The notes beneath the pieces were generated by a model. It had not been told where the DNA came from. It was given only the letters and a program-made list of their open reading frames with translations, and ran no database searches. Shown one piece after another: positions 40,931-46,035 of a stretch of DNA of 64,000 nucleotides; position 1 is the stretch's first letter, and each line of letters begins with the position of its first letter. The translations under genes were made by a program, and so were the position numbers. This DNA comes from a bacterium (lineage in GTDB: Bacteria > Bacillota > Sulfobacillia > UBA995), in NCBI GenBank assembly GCA_031082145.1, contig JAVHLP010000003.1, positions 1 to 64,000 on the forward strand, given 5' to 3'.

Positions 40931-40959
40931 TTCAGATCGGGTCCCGCGGCTGGTATAAT
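40931..40959 (+). promoter_or_regulatory. Promoter ahead of the DUF1405 gene
   Basis: TTCAGA (40931-40936) and TATAAT (40954-40959) have a 17-bp spacer. The -10 box overlaps the ATG at 40958, so this promoter would produce an mRNA needing the GTG at 40970, nearly leaderless. Confidence 0.5.
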
Positions 40960-41641
40960 GAAGGGTGCCGTGAACCTGCTGAAGCTCAGAGACCGCCTGG
41001 GCCAAGACCGCCGGCTGCTGGTGCTCCTGCTGGGAGTCAACCTGATCGGTGCCGGCTATGGCTTCGACTGGTACGCCGACCAGCTCAGGACCACTCCCTT
41101 CTGGCTGTGGCCGCTGACTGCCGACAGTCCCGTGAGCTTGCTGTTCTTCTCCCTGGCCCTGGCCATGTGGCTGGCCGGCCGCCGGCTAGCGGTTCTCGAG
41201 ACCCTGGGTTACGTGGGGCTCGTCAAGTACGGGTTTTGGACCATGTTCGTGGTCGGCCTGCACTGGGCCCGAGGAGGCGACTTCCTGGGGATTGATCTCT
41301 TCTTGTTCCTGTCCCACGGTCTCATGGCTCTGCAGGCCCTGCTCCTGGCGGGATGGCTGCCGCTCCCGGCGGCCGCCTTCGGCCCCGCGCTGGCCTGGCA
41401 CCTGGCAAATGATTACTTCGACTACCTGCACCCCGGCACACCGACCATGGGGCTGCTGATCGATGCGGGCGTGACGCAGGTCGTCAGCTTGCTCTCAACC
41501 CCGGTCGCGACGCTGGTGCTCTTGACCCTGAGGGGCCGAGGCCAGCAAGGGCATGATTTGACCGATCCCCCAGTTGTCGGATATAATGACAGAAACCGAA
41601 TAGATCCATCGGTCACTCCTGACCGGTCCCCTGAACGCTGA
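40958..41641 (+). CDS. DUF1405 membrane protein (YpjA-like)
   Basis: 227 residues with six hydrophobic segments. WYADQLRTTPFWLWPLTADSP and FLSHGLMALQALLL are typical of DUF1405, found in Bacillota without assigned function. The last 35 residues (after VLLTLRGRG) are polar and overlap the next promoter and the start of the riboswitch. The ATG at 40958 or the GTG at 40970 may be the true start; the candidate promoter favours the latter. Confidence 0.8.
   Translation: MKGAVNLLKLRDRLGQDRRLLVLLLGVNLIGAGYGFDWYADQLRTTPFWLWPLTADSPVSLLFFSLALAMWLAGRRLAVLETLGYVGLVKYGFWTMFVVGLHWARGGDFLGIDLFLFLSHGLMALQALLLAGWLPLPAAAFGPALAWHLANDYFDYLHPGTPTMGLLIDAGVTQVVSLLSTPVATLVLLTLRGRGQQGHDLTDPPVVGYNDRNRIDPSVTPDRSPER
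41558..41587 (+). promoter_or_regulatory. Promoter of the riboswitch-controlled operon
   Basis: TTGACC (41558-41563) and TATAAT (41582-41587) are separated by 18 bp, inside the 3' end of the DUF1405 gene. Transcription would start near 41594, about 40 bases before the riboswitch. Confidence 0.7.
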
Positions 41642-41751
41642 GTCTCTTGTAGAGCGGGGGAACCAGTAGTGGGGCGAGTCCCGGACCAAGTCCGGGTAGG
41701 GTCACCTCTCGACCCGAGCCCGTCAGCTAACCTCGTAAGCGTGGAGGAGGG
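41634..41751 (+). ncRNA. Cyclic di-AMP riboswitch (ydaO-yuaA class)
   Basis: The two most conserved blocks of this class are present in order and spacing: AGCGGGGGAACCAGTAG (41652-41668), then a GC hairpin, and CCGTCAGCTAACCTCGTAAG (41720-41739). The start CGCTGAGTCTC fits helix P1. In Bacillus the class senses c-di-AMP and turns off downstream genes for wall hydrolases and potassium or osmolyte transport. Here the downstream genes are an opine-dehydrogenase-like enzyme and a B12-binding protein, an unusual target. Confidence 0.9.
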
Positions 41752-41804
41752 GCGGATCGGAGCAGGAAGAACGACTTGAGCTAGACATGACGAGTCTTTC
41801 TTCA

Positions 41805-41833
41805 GGCCCGGGACCCCCCGGGCCAATTCTTTT
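41805..41833 (+). terminator. Intrinsic terminator of the riboswitch expression platform
   Basis: GGCCCGGG (41805-41812) pairs with CCCGGGCC (41817-41824) around four bases, followed by AATTCTTTT. It lies between the aptamer and the next ribosome site, as expected for control by termination. Confidence 0.85.
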
Positions 41834-41851
41834 CGGAGGGGAGGCGATCTC

Positions 41852-43027
41852 ATGACCGTCTTGGAGATGTCTGAGTACCTGGCCAAATTCCGTCGCGACC
41901 TGCGGTTCGCGGTGCTGGGAGCGGGCAACGGGGGGCAGGCCCTCGCCGGCTACCTGGCCTGGCGCGGATTCCCGGTGCGGCTGTACAACCGGTCGGCGGA
42001 CAAGCTAGAGGGGATCCGCGATCGGGGCGGCGTTGAACTCGAGGGGCGATTTGGGGGATTCGGCCGGCTCGAGGCGGTCACCTCCGACTTGGGGGAAGCG
42101 CTCCAGGGGGCGAGGGTCATCCTGGTGGTCATCCCCGCCTCGGGGCATCGCGACCTGGCCCGGGCTCTGGCACCTCACCTGGCTCCGGGGCAGGTGGTCG
42201 TCTTGAATCCCGGCCGGACCGGGGGGGCATTCGAGTTCTACCGGGTCTTTCGGGAGCGCGGGGTCCATCCTGCGGTCACCGTTGCCGAGGCGCAGACTTT
42301 CATCTTCGCCAGCCGGGTGGTGGGACCGGGGAGAGCCCGCATTTTTGAGAAGAAGCGGCGAGTTCCCGTGGCCGCCCTGCCGGCCGGGCGTACCCGGACG
42401 GTCGTGCGGCTCATGCGGCGCGCCCTTTCCGAGTTTGTGCCTGCCGCCCATGTACTGGAGACCAGCCTGGCTAACATCGGGGCGATCTTCCACCCCGCGC
42501 CCGCCCTCATGAACGCGGCCCGGATCGAAAACGGGTCCAGCTTCGACCACTACCACGACGGGATCTCTCCGGCCGTGGCCCGGGTGCTGGAGGCCATGGA
42601 CGAGGAGCGCCTGGCGGTGGCGAGGGCCCTGGGCCTGCGGCTCATCTCGGCCCGGGAGTGGCTTCGGGTGGCCTATGGCGCCGTGGGTCCCGATCTGTAT
42701 ACCGCCATCGCCTCGTGCTCAGCCTATGCCGGGATCGGTGCTCCCCGCGAGGTGAACAGCAGGTATCTACATGAGGATGTCCCCGCCGGGCTGGTTCCGC
42801 TGGCAGCGTTAGGCCAGTTGACGGGAGTGACCACCCCGGCCATCAGCGCCATCGTGGATCTGGCCTCGGTGGCGGTGGGGGCCGATTTCCGGGCCGCCGG
42901 CCGTACCCTGGAGCGCATGGGCCTGGATGGGATGACCGTGAACGGGCTGTGGGATTACGTCTTGAGGGGGGAGAGGGCCCCTGCCGCAAGAAGCGAGGAA
43001 GCTCATTCTGGCGGCGGCGCTTGGTGA
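41852..43027 (+). CDS. NAD/opine dehydrogenase family protein
   Basis: 391 residues. A Rossmann start FAVLGAGNGGQALAGYLAWRG and the C-terminal octopine/nopaline dehydrogenase domain (ETSLANIGAIFHPAPALMN, ENGSSFDHYHDGISPAVARV with the active-site His) are clear. The family reduces an imine formed from an amino acid and a keto acid, or the reverse. The ATG has GGAGGGGAGG upstream. It is the first gene behind the c-di-AMP riboswitch and overlaps the B12-binding gene, suggesting linked amino-acid chemistry. Confidence 0.85.
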   Translation: MTVLEMSEYLAKFRRDLRFAVLGAGNGGQALAGYLAWRGFPVRLYNRSADKLEGIRDRGGVELEGRFGGFGRLEAVTSDLGEALQGARVILVVIPASGHRDLARALAPHLAPGQVVVLNPGRTGGAFEFYRVFRERGVHPAVTVAEAQTFIFASRVVGPGRARIFEKKRRVPVAALPAGRTRTVVRLMRRALSEFVPAAHVLETSLANIGAIFHPAPALMNAARIENGSSFDHYHDGISPAVARVLEAMDEERLAVARALGLRLISAREWLRVAYGAVGPDLYTAIASCSAYAGIGAPREVNSRYLHEDVPAGLVPLAALGQLTGVTTPAISAIVDLASVAVGADFRAAGRTLERMGLDGMTVNGLWDYVLRGERAPAARSEEAHSGGGAW

Positions 43028-44612
43028 CTGCGTCCATGTAGCCGGCCTGCTGGGTTTTCTCCGGCTGGCCGAGAGCGAGGGGTGGCGGACTCGCTTCCTG
43101 GGACCGGCCGTCGCCGTGCGGGACCTGGCCGGCGCCATCGCCACCGAGGCGCCCGAGTTGGTGGCCGTGAGCTATCGGCTAACCGACTCCTCCGCCGCCC
43201 GGTTGTTCACCGAGCTGAGAGCGGCCCTGGGAGACGAACGGCCGCGGATGGTCTTCGGCGGGACCCTGCCGGTGTGCCGCCAGGCCGAGGCCAGCGGCCT
43301 TTTCGAGGCCTGCTTCGGGCCTGATACCGGTGCCGCTGCGGTGCTGGCCTACCTGCGGGGACGGGGGTTGGAGGATCGCGACGAGGGCCACCCCGGTACC
43401 TTGCTGGAGCGGATGGAGGCGGCACGGCCCTTCCCGCTCATCCGGCACCACTTTGGGCAGCCCACCCTGGCGGCCACGGCGGCCGGGATTGAGCGGCTGG
43501 CCGAGGCCCGGGCCCTGGACATCATCTCGCTGGGACCCGACCAGAACGCCCAGGAGCATTTCTTCCGGCCCCAGGAGATGGACCCCGCCCAGGACGGTGC
43601 GGGCGGGGTGCCGGTTCGCCGTCCCGAGGACTTCGCCCTGCTCTACCAGGCTTCCCGGCGCGGCAACCACCCGCTCATGCGCTGCTACAGCGGAACCCGG
43701 GACATCCTGCGGCTGGCCGAGGTCCTGGCCAGGGAGATCAACAACGCCTGGGCGGCGGTACCTCTCTGCTGGTACAACGAACTGGACGGCCGGAGCGACC
43801 GCCCGCTGGGCCGGGCCATCGCCGAGAACCTGGAAGTCGTCCGGTGGCACGCCGCCCGGGGAATCCCCGTGGAGATCAACGAGTCCCATCACTGGAGCCT
43901 GCGCGACTCCCACGACACCATCGCCGTGGTCATGGCCTACCTCGCGGCCTACAATGCCCGGGCGGCCGGTGTCCGCCACTATGTGGCCCAGTACATGTTC
44001 AACACTCCCGCCGGCACCTCGTTCACCATGGACCTGGGCAAGATGCTGGCCAAGGTCCACCTGATCGAGGGGCTGCACGACGGGACCTTCCAGACCTACC
44101 GCCAGGTGCGAACCGGCCTGGCCAGCATGCCGGCCGACTACGGCCGGGCCAAGGGCCAGCTTGCCGCCTCCACCATGCTGCAGATGGCCCTGGCTCCCGA
44201 CATCGTGCACGTGGTGGGGTTCTCCGAGGCGGACCACGCGGCGACTCCCGACGACATCGGGGAGAGCTGCAACCTGGTCCGCCAGGTGATCGGCAACTGC
44301 CTGGGCGGGACGCCTGATCTCACCGCCGACCCGGCGGTTGCCGCCCGCCGGGACGAACTCCTGGCCGAAGCGCAAACGCTGCTGGAGGCGATACGGGAGG
44401 CGGCCCCGGGGGGGACCGGCGACCCCCTGACCGACCCCGCCAGCCTGGAACTGGCGATCCGGCGCGGGCTGCTGGACGCGCCCCATCTCAGGGGCCGGCC
44501 GGTGGCCCGGGGCGAGCTGGTGACCCGCGTGGTGGACGGCGCTTGCCGGGCGGTCGACCCGGCCAGCGGGAAGCCTCTCGCCGAGGCCGAGCGGGTCCGC
44601 CGCCTGGGCTGA
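42981..44612 (+). CDS. Cobalamin-binding protein resembling B12 mutase subunits
   Basis: About 543 residues if started at the CTG at 42981. The first 25 residues hold the B12-type motif GDCVHVAG (D16, H19, G22, spaced DxxHxxG), followed by a Rossmann-like B12 domain (ELVAVSYRLTDSSAARLF). The remaining 400 residues resemble a TIM-barrel mutase or methyltransferase subunit, with EINESHHWSLRDSHDTIAVV and QYMFNTPAG. The first common start codon, GTG 43116, would remove the motif; the CTG has a GGGGGGAG site just upstream. It overlaps the previous gene by 47 bp. The exact reaction is unknown; glutamate-mutase-like carbon shuffling is one option. Confidence 0.65.
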   Translation: MPQEARKLILAAALGDCVHVAGLLGFLRLAESEGWRTRFLGPAVAVRDLAGAIATEAPELVAVSYRLTDSSAARLFTELRAALGDERPRMVFGGTLPVCRQAEASGLFEACFGPDTGAAAVLAYLRGRGLEDRDEGHPGTLLERMEAARPFPLIRHHFGQPTLAATAAGIERLAEARALDIISLGPDQNAQEHFFRPQEMDPAQDGAGGVPVRRPEDFALLYQASRRGNHPLMRCYSGTRDILRLAEVLAREINNAWAAVPLCWYNELDGRSDRPLGRAIAENLEVVRWHAARGIPVEINESHHWSLRDSHDTIAVVMAYLAAYNARAAGVRHYVAQYMFNTPAGTSFTMDLGKMLAKVHLIEGLHDGTFQTYRQVRTGLASMPADYGRAKGQLAASTMLQMALAPDIVHVVGFSEADHAATPDDIGESCNLVRQVIGNCLGGTPDLTADPAVAARRDELLAEAQTLLEAIREAAPGGTGDPLTDPASLELAIRRGLLDAPHLRGRPVARGELVTRVVDGACRAVDPASGKPLAEAERVRRLG

Positions 44613-44620
44613 AGGAATCG

Positions 44621-44670
44621 GGGCAGCTGGGGTCAAAGACTTGGACCTGATCCAGCAGCCCTTTTTTTTT
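44621..44670 (+). terminator. Intrinsic terminator after the B12 protein gene
   Basis: GGGCAGCTGG (44621-44630) pairs with CCAGCAGCCC (44652-44661) with one mismatch, followed by nine T (44662-44670). It ends the riboswitch operon just before the MATE gene. Confidence 0.75.
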
Positions 44671-44682
44671 GTGGGAGGCCAT

Positions 44683-46035
44683 ATGGCGGTTCCCGTTCCA
44701 GCTCTCGGCCTCGACCCCACCGGCCGGCGGCGCCGGGTAGTTACCCTGGCCGCGCCGGCCATTGGCGAGATGGTCCTGCATATGTTCATCTGGATCGTCG
44801 ACACCGCCATGGTGGGGCGCCTGGGCGCGGTTGCGCTCAGCGCGGTCGGACTCGGGGGTCACGTCTACTTCACGGCTGCTTTTATCCTGGGCGCCCTGGG
44901 AACGGGAGTAACCGCCATGGTAGCCCGCTCGGTCGGGGCGGGCGACACCGCCGCGGCGGGCCGGATCGCCCGCCAAGGGCTTGTCTTGGCGGCGGGCCTG
45001 GGCATCACCCTGGGAGCCGGCATATACTGCCTGGCGGGACCCTTGTACTCCTTCACCGGTCTGGGGCCGGAGGCCACGGTCCTGGGTACCGGCTACACCC
45101 GTATCCTGGCCACGGCCGCCCCCGTGCTGCTGCTCGGGGTGGTGGCCAACGCCGCCCTGCGGGCGACCGGCAACACCCGGTTGCCCCTCTTGGCCGCCTT
45201 GCTCGGCAACCTCGTCAACGGAGTTGGTGACTACCTGCTCATCTTCGGCGTGCTCGGCTTTCCCCGGCTGGAGGTGACCGGGGCGGCTATCGCCGCCGTG
45301 CTGGGGCAGGTTGTGGCCGCCGCCGTCTCCCTGGCCTACCTGCTAAGTGCTCGATCCGGGCTAACCCTGGCCGGCCGTGGCCTGGACCTGGACCTGGTGC
45401 GCCGGCTGGGGCGGCTTAGCCTGCCCACCTCGGCCGAGACAACTCTCCTGGACGGGGGGCGGGTAGTGTGCCAGCTCATCGTGACCTCGCTGGGGGCCAC
45501 CGCCTTTGCCGCCCACCAGGTCGCGGTGGCGGCGGAGTCGCTCTCCTTCATGCCCGGCTACGGCTTCGCCATTGCCGCCAGCATCCTGGCCGGGCAGAGC
45601 CTGGGGGCGGGACTGCCGGGCGAGGTCCGGGCCTACACCCGGGAGGCCGTCCGCCTGGCGGGGGCGATCATGAGTGGCATGGGCGTCATTTTCCTTCTGG
45701 CGGCCACCGGGTTGATCCGCCTCTTCACCCTCGATCCGGCGGTGGTCGCCCTGGGATCGGTGTGCCTGCGGATCTCCGCCTTCGCCCAGCCGGCCATCGC
45801 CTTCACCGAGACTCATAACGGCGCCCTGCGGGGGGCGGGAGACACCCGGAGTCCCATGTGGGCTAGCGCGATCGGGATCTGGGGCTTCCGCGTGCCTGCC
45901 ACCTACCTGGCCATCCGCCACCTGGGAATGGATCTTCGGGCGGTATGGGCTATAATGGTAGTCGAATGGATGCTCCGGGCGGTCCTGGTGGGTACCGCTT
46001 TCGCCCGTGGCCGCTGGGAGCGGGTCCGAGTCTAG
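44683..46035 (+). CDS. MATE family efflux transporter
   Basis: 450 residues with about twelve hydrophobic helices in two similar halves. VDTAMVGRLGAVALSAVGLG near the start and LLDGGRVVCQLIVTSLGATAFAAHQVA at the start of the second half are MATE hallmarks. Transport of cations or drugs driven by Na+ or H+ is expected; substrate unknown. ATG 44683 has GGGAGG upstream, whereas a TTG at 44641 would lie inside the terminator hairpin. Confidence 0.88.
   Translation: MAVPVPALGLDPTGRRRRVVTLAAPAIGEMVLHMFIWIVDTAMVGRLGAVALSAVGLGGHVYFTAAFILGALGTGVTAMVARSVGAGDTAAAGRIARQGLVLAAGLGITLGAGIYCLAGPLYSFTGLGPEATVLGTGYTRILATAAPVLLLGVVANAALRATGNTRLPLLAALLGNLVNGVGDYLLIFGVLGFPRLEVTGAAIAAVLGQVVAAAVSLAYLLSARSGLTLAGRGLDLDLVRRLGRLSLPTSAETTLLDGGRVVCQLIVTSLGATAFAAHQVAVAAESLSFMPGYGFAIAASILAGQSLGAGLPGEVRAYTREAVRLAGAIMSGMGVIFLLAATGLIRLFTLDPAVVALGSVCLRISAFAQPAIAFTETHNGALRGAGDTRSPMWASAIGIWGFRVPATYLAIRHLGMDLRAVWAIMVVEWMLRAVLVGTAFARGRWERVRV

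Follow-up and report, generated by a model that had tools for sequence, protein, structure and literature searches.

A 64,000-nucleotide stretch of a bacterial genome (Bacillota; Sulfobacillia; UBA995; assembly GCA_031082145.1, contig JAVHLP010000003.1, positions 1 to 64,000 of the forward strand; hereafter "the window") carries a cyclic di-AMP (c-di-AMP) riboswitch of the ydaO/yuaA type upstream of two overlapping genes, encoding an opine dehydrogenase (gene 1) and a putative B12-dependent mutase (gene 2; Table 1). Judging from the sequence and from its recurrence across related loci, this riboswitch very probably controls both genes. The RNA is a new member of Rfam family RF00379, and its operon, an uncharacterised module, would add a branch to the c-di-AMP regulon. 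Our best overall explanation, to which we assign a probability of about 0.5, is that a c-di-AMP OFF switch governs an opine and mutase pathway whose product is a small compatible solute.

The riboswitch leader and its recurrence

The aptamer matches RF00379 over the full length of the model (positions 1-134 of 134; 94.3 bits against a cut-off of 38 bits, E 5.9e-21), and each of the 26 consensus pairs placed by the Rfam alignment is a standard pair. It is the sole above-threshold Rfam match in the window, in which the same scan gave no Na+ riboswitch match, and the single RF00379 match in the 2.34-Mb, 98% complete genome, which also holds two matches to the diadenylate cyclase domain (PF02457). 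A covariance model of our own (R1), which includes the window sequence, scores it at 104.8 bits. A first-pass annotation of this DNA had proposed a ydaO-class aptamer at 41634-41751, just inside the Rfam limits, along with a promoter, a terminator and the two genes in that order, and all of these elements were recovered as proposed.

Promoter-like sites were detected by the scan at 4 per 5 kb, compared with 0.3 expected from shuffled sequences, and with the promoter spacing that we take to be usual, transcription would start near position 41594. Downstream of the aptamer, the leader terminator comprises a stem at 41805-41824 followed by a U-rich tail (AATTCTTTTC). Because the terminator scan by itself was not above chance (2 found vs 1.9 expected), this assignment is based on conservation. 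In the two nearest relatives, L115 (a metagenome-assembled genome, MAG, named "Clostridiales bacterium UBA8153") and L116 (a MAG titled Symbiobacterium thermophilum), the -35 and -10 hexamers are largely kept, the aptamer is almost wholly kept and the terminator is conserved, with drift in the bases between these elements and in their flanks; in L116, the terminator stem is altered on both arms with pairing retained. Terminator-like stems were also found in 29 of 52 distinct leaders of relatives, compared with 6.0 expected from mononucleotide shuffles. The terminator stands apart from the aptamer, and pairing is possible between its left arm and an aptamer segment near 41713-41720 (-13.4 kcal/mol, one mismatch), so that high c-di-AMP should stop the operon, and we consider an OFF switch likely. 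An open reading frame on the same strand (40958-41641; DUF1405, LhaT-like at 109.6 bits, under the NCBIfam equivalog cut-off of 255) runs with its 3' end across the promoter and 16 bases into the aptamer, and a similar frame stands upstream of the aptamer in L116 and L136.

Table 1. Features of the riboswitch-controlled locus, in window coordinates
Feature	Position	Strand	Basis
Sigma-70-type promoter TTGACC-18-TATAAT	41558..41587	+	Scan, 11/12 matches
c-di-AMP (ydaO/yuaA) riboswitch aptamer	41626..41756	+	RF00379, full length
Candidate antiterminator segment inside aptamer	41713..41720	+	Complementary to terminator left arm, one mismatch; inferred
Intrinsic leader terminator (expression platform)	41805..41834	+	Scan; stem conserved with compensatory change in L116
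Gene 1 (ODH), CENDH-type opine dehydrogenase, 391 aa	41852..43027	+	PF02317, PDB 1bg6
Gene 2 (MUT), B12-binding domain and glutamate-mutase-like TIM barrel, 543 aa	42981..44612	+	Probable CTG start
Probable terminator after gene 2, imperfect stem and 9 U	44620..44670	+	Fold only
MATE transporter gene	44683..46035	+	Directly past probable terminator

To survey the pairing of riboswitch and genes, gene 2 was searched against 151 genomes of the window's class, 74 of which gave matches, some of them short, and against the genome_contigs collection, from which the best 80 of 520 stretches encoding relatives were retained as named loci. RF00379 was matched in 131 of the 151 class genomes. An aptamer was found within 3.2 kb upstream, on the same strand, at 42 of 69 class mutase loci (42/61 when restricted to loci showing 3 kb of upstream sequence or an aptamer). 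By the same criterion, 18 of the 80 named loci carry one (in one case a fragment at a contig end), including loci of Thermoanaerobacter wiegelii, Thermoanaerobacter thermocopriae, Caldanaerobacter subterraneus and Thermovorax subterraneus. The chance expectation, by arithmetic from copy number and genome size, is about 0.1% per locus, and recurrence across loci rules out a chance pairing. By hand count, 20 mutase-bearing class genomes hold exactly one RF00379 match, which stands before the pair in 13; in the others, the contig ends too early (2) or no aptamer was found before the pair (5). A further hand count gave 16 mutase-bearing class genomes without any RF00379 match. On a FastTree phylogeny of 129 mutases (50 with an aptamer, 62 without and 17 whose upstream sequence is too short to score), the presence or absence of the aptamer requires at least 9 changes, gains and losses being inseparable on this tree. 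Two loci depart from the common arrangement: in L201 (genome G039) the aptamer lies 83 bases before a mutase that has no dehydrogenase next to it, and L096 (G044), counted once, comprises two mutase loci in tandem, both with an aptamer of their own.

In its full aptamer, placed pairs and downstream terminator, the window RNA is like other ydaO/yuaA leaders, whereas the known targets of RF00379 are wall hydrolases or transport rather than an opine dehydrogenase and a B12 mutase. T. wiegelii has three RF00379 copies, of which the third precedes this pair and the others precede SH3/NlpC-like and LysM-type genes, as we read their sequences. Because those other copies precede cell-wall-hydrolase-like genes, the pair forms a separate branch of the regulon, as the first-pass annotation had suggested. 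The recurrence likewise supports its proposal that both an opine dehydrogenase and a B12 enzyme are under riboswitch control, and the genome survey that it outlined for the same pairing finds it both in the class and in Thermoanaerobacter.

Two conserved enzymes and their partners

By homology and predicted structure, gene 1 is an opine dehydrogenase of the type of N-(1-D-carboxyethyl)-L-norvaline dehydrogenase (CENDH) from Arthrobacter 1C. It matches Octopine_DH (PF02317) at 162.9 bits against a cut-off of 30, along with N-terminal NAD-binding (Rossmann) domains, and CENDH itself (PDB 1bg6) at 294.8 bits (E 9.1e-87). Its structural model (predicted local distance difference test score, pLDDT, 91.9) aligns to 1bg6 with a Foldseek E of 1.3e-37, 41% identity and a root-mean-square deviation (rmsd) of 1.3 over 351 alignment columns. 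Catalytic roles of a His and an Asp are known from octopine dehydrogenase, and H214 and D309 of gene 1 are invariant in 30 of 30 aligned dehydrogenases. Unlike CENDH, gene 1 is paired with a mutase and sits under a riboswitch.

Gene 2 most likely begins at CTG 42981, and would therefore overlap gene 1 by 47 bases. The program-made list of open reading frames places its start at GTG 43116, but the frame has no ATG, GTG or TTG between the preceding stop and that position, homology begins at 42981, and L115 has TTG at the corresponding place. The N-terminus matches the B12-binding domain (PF02310, 39.6 bits); beyond it, gene 2 has no Pfam match over cut-off and no NCBIfam match. The initial description as a B12-binding enzyme thus holds for this domain and can be refined, since the modelled remainder (pLDDT 92.4) appears glutamate-mutase-like by fold: the closest structure is GlmE (Foldseek E 8.7e-17; for 1cb7_B, VIA Z 33.7 and rmsd 2.8 over 372 aligned residues at 14% identity), followed by lysine 5,6-aminomutase (Z 31.8) and ornithine 4,5-aminomutase. 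The window protein did not match PF06368 (Met_asp_mut_E) at E up to 10, nor did any protein of its genome, and some gene 2 relatives just pass this family's cut-off (e.g. 34.9 vs 26.6 bits). B12 mutases usually carry the cobalamin motif DxHxxG; the window protein and 124 of 129 relatives have CxHxxG, and 5 of the 129 have DxHxxG. Gene 2 thus shares with glutamate mutase GlmS/GlmE (1cb7, 6h9e) the barrel fold, the B12 domain and, in relatives, MutL-type reactivase partners, but we do not class it as a glutamate mutase because both the usual motif and a family match are lacking and the B12 domain is fused N-terminally instead of forming a separate subunit. Mapping of GlmE substrate residues onto gene 2 was dropped, the register being uncertain at 14% identity; in our own reading of the alignment, the class GlmE-like protein L260 seems itself unlike Clostridium cochlearium GlmE at those positions. 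A pyridoxal phosphate (PLP)-dependent aminomutase of the ornithine 4,5- or lysine 5,6- type was also rejected: the PLP lysine of ornithine aminomutase sits in an insertion of the B12 domain, and this insertion is missing in a 53-sequence profile.

In relatives, MutL-type reactivase genes are found beside such mutases or fused to them. In L193, a GlmL/MutL-type gene identified by Pfam and NCBIfam adjoins the mutase, and L170 and L200 probably have the same arrangement, as judged from cluster and length. The window genome has four MutL-family genes (G000:C22 at 60862, 115055 and 119086; G000:C28 at 146469), suggesting several further B12 mutases. These genes, a fold nearest to glutamate mutase and the many hosts that appear from their record titles to be anaerobes would suit a catabolic pair that breaks down an opine or amino acid via the mutase, as in glutamate fermentation through methylaspartate. 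We consider this unlikely: control by a c-di-AMP riboswitch and partner ligases that spend ATP fit synthesis better, and no recurring catabolic neighbour was identified, although most small neighbour clusters have no identification.

Dehydrogenase and mutase genes lie side by side at 68 of the 69 class loci and at 75 of the 80 named ones, which include archaea. According to record titles, the named relatives belong to Bacillota, Bacteroidota, Ignavibacteria, Aminicenantes, Armatimonadetes, Planctomycetota and archaea, the archaeal carriers of the pair being Thorarchaeota, Lokiarchaeota, Theionarchaea, Thermococci and Methanomicrobia; most of these records are MAGs, for which mis-binning is possible. 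Alignments were hand-picked (A3, 53 mutases; A4, 30 dehydrogenases), with L186 dropped from both and L171 from A4, where L154 replaced it, because the sequence contained a stop; sequence from G069 was not included. The 69 class loci and the tree exclude six long fusion paralogs (L109-L114). These are diverged mutase versions of about 1,220-1,355 aa at six class loci, each behind a diverged opine dehydrogenase, and apparently form a parallel pathway; L112, the one scanned, ends in a MutL domain, and an aptamer is in view only in L110, where it lies downstream.

Two kinds of ATP-dependent enzyme, absent from the first-pass annotation, recur beside the pair in relatives. An AsnB-like gene lies 3' of the mutase at 20 of 129 loci from many phyla (including L087, L091, L092, L105, L195, L168 and L171), and a D-Ala-D-Ala-ligase-like ATP-grasp gene lies near the pair at 22 of 129; the two never occur together (0/129 vs about 3.4 expected; P 0.017 if rows are independent). 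Among the 20 AsnB-like partners, the glutaminase residue Cys-2 is lost in 14, kept in 5 (four called by script, L195 by eye from the alignment) and not scorable in one. It differs between the close L168 (Cys) and L171 (Ala). Taken together, this suggests two interchangeable routes of amide-bond formation, often without glutamine as ammonia donor. Beta-lactam synthetase, a member of the AsnB relatives that also include CarA and N-acetylglutaminylglutamine amidotransferase, has likewise lost this Cys, but the L171 partner, the one searched, scores 256.9 bits with asparagine synthetase B against 70.8 bits with beta-lactam synthetase and is thus much closer to the former.

These partners could instead ligate or amidate a peptidoglycan residue, in which case the pathway would make a cell-wall building block or modification. 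The wall-type genes behind the other T. wiegelii aptamers would fit, as would the single ATP-grasp partner scanned, whose top scores are to D-Ala-D-Ala ligase models. Its scores are nonetheless far below the cut-offs of these models, the AsnB-like partners have often lost the glutaminase Cys, and the pair also occurs in archaea, which to our knowledge lack murein. We therefore regard a role in the wall as doubtful.

Proposed pathway and competing explanations

In the explanation that we favour, plentiful c-di-AMP would end transcription in the leader, and a fall in c-di-AMP, which published models tie to osmotic distress, would allow the operon to be made. The dehydrogenase, presumably using NAD(P)H, would couple an amino acid through its amine to a 2-oxo acid, as its family does, yielding an N-carboxyalkyl amino acid. 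The mutase, of glutamate-mutase type but PLP-free, would use adenosylcobalamin to rearrange the carbon skeleton of either the opine or its amino-acid precursor. Many relatives encode an additional ATP-dependent, amide-forming enzyme that would complete the product, a small compatible solute. The sequences themselves show the aptamer, promoter, terminator, enzyme families and folds and the conserved pairing with the riboswitch; the OFF direction, cofactor use, substrates and product are the parts that we infer. That both enzymes act in one biosynthetic pathway is likely, on a par with the OFF direction; that the product is an osmolyte, as the first-pass annotation had also suggested and as would suit c-di-AMP logic and the amide-forming partners, has slightly less than even odds.

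Lysine-2,3-aminomutase is an enzyme of the radical-SAM class. According to PMC9337991, its gene in Dehalobacter sp. CF is preceded by a tandem Na+/c-di-AMP riboswitch, and high c-di-AMP denotes a cell free of osmotic distress. A compatible solute is our first guess because that c-di-AMP switch, with the same osmotic-distress logic, stands before an enzyme for an osmolyte precursor. The two systems would have in common c-di-AMP OFF control and an amino-acid-rearranging enzyme thought to feed an osmolyte, but the Dehalobacter locus, as described there, has a Na+ aptamer and an aminomutase in place of a B12 mutase and an opine dehydrogenase. More speculatively, the pair may belong to a hitherto undescribed pathway that uses B12 to make a compatible solute derived from an opine and either amidated or closed to a lactam, a pathway common to bacteria and Asgard archaea and several times put under a c-di-AMP riboswitch, its mutase forming a new family with Cys for Asp in the cobalamin motif and possibly acting on the opine itself.

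Several observations weigh against the favoured explanation. An unconstrained fold of the leader pairs the terminator left arm elsewhere, the proposed antiterminator is unused when the right arm is removed, and enforcing the aptamer costs about 9 kcal/mol of folding stability relative to the unconstrained state, in a model that includes neither ligand nor tertiary contacts. A simple terminator was not found in 23 of the 52 leaders of relatives, as might be expected of an ON switch or of translational action; for the present leader we consider either improbable, as its terminator is separate from the aptamer and conserved, a layout reported as an OFF switch in PMC9337991. No aptamer was found upstream at 27 of 69 class and 62 of 80 named loci, so that the pair must also work without riboswitch control, and archaeal and Bacteroidota loci show none. 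The sampled genomes are related, and the counts are thus not independent. Finally, the window operon has no AsnB-like or ATP-grasp gene, and a search for orthologues elsewhere in its genome returned weak matches only (37% over part of the length and 34% elsewhere), the ATP-grasp gene standing away from the pair.

A terminator had also been proposed after the second gene. An imperfect stem and a run of nine U are present there, but the stem (44620-44661) is no more stable than shuffled sequences (z -1.0, 33/200 as good) and was not found by the scan, making it a likely but weak candidate. The MATE transporter gene beyond it was rejected as an operon member on account of this probable intervening terminator, and is not a recurrent neighbour in the gene-order table. 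With MATE as exporter, the operon could make an opine-type metal chelator or other secreted metabolite comparable to staphylopine, and opine metallophore dehydrogenases are indeed among the structural matches of gene 1. Such a product seems rather improbable, given that the nearest structure is CENDH instead of a metallophore enzyme, that the probable terminator separates MATE from gene 2, and that no recurring transporter or nicotianamine-synthase-like partner was seen, though most neighbours have no identification.

A probable new branch of the c-di-AMP regulon

Our literature search returned no paper joining a c-di-AMP riboswitch with an opine dehydrogenase or a glutamate/methylaspartate mutase, although published target lists may include the pairing, and none joining glutamate mutase with opine dehydrogenase, or Thermoanaerobacter, compatible solute and opine. 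The PMC9481103 main text contains neither "opine" nor "mutase", and in the literature searched, opine dehydrogenase was connected with osmotic stress in work on mussels and a protist.

With this module, which occurs widely among bacteria and archaea, the c-di-AMP regulon would reach beyond wall hydrolases and transport. The module's mutase family also deviates from DxHxxG, the motif that B12 mutases usually carry. Because the riboswitch indicates when the product is wanted, the function of this module can be tested in cultures of Thermoanaerobacter and Caldanaerobacter. An osmolyte, if that is what the module makes, would represent a new class made with vitamin B12.

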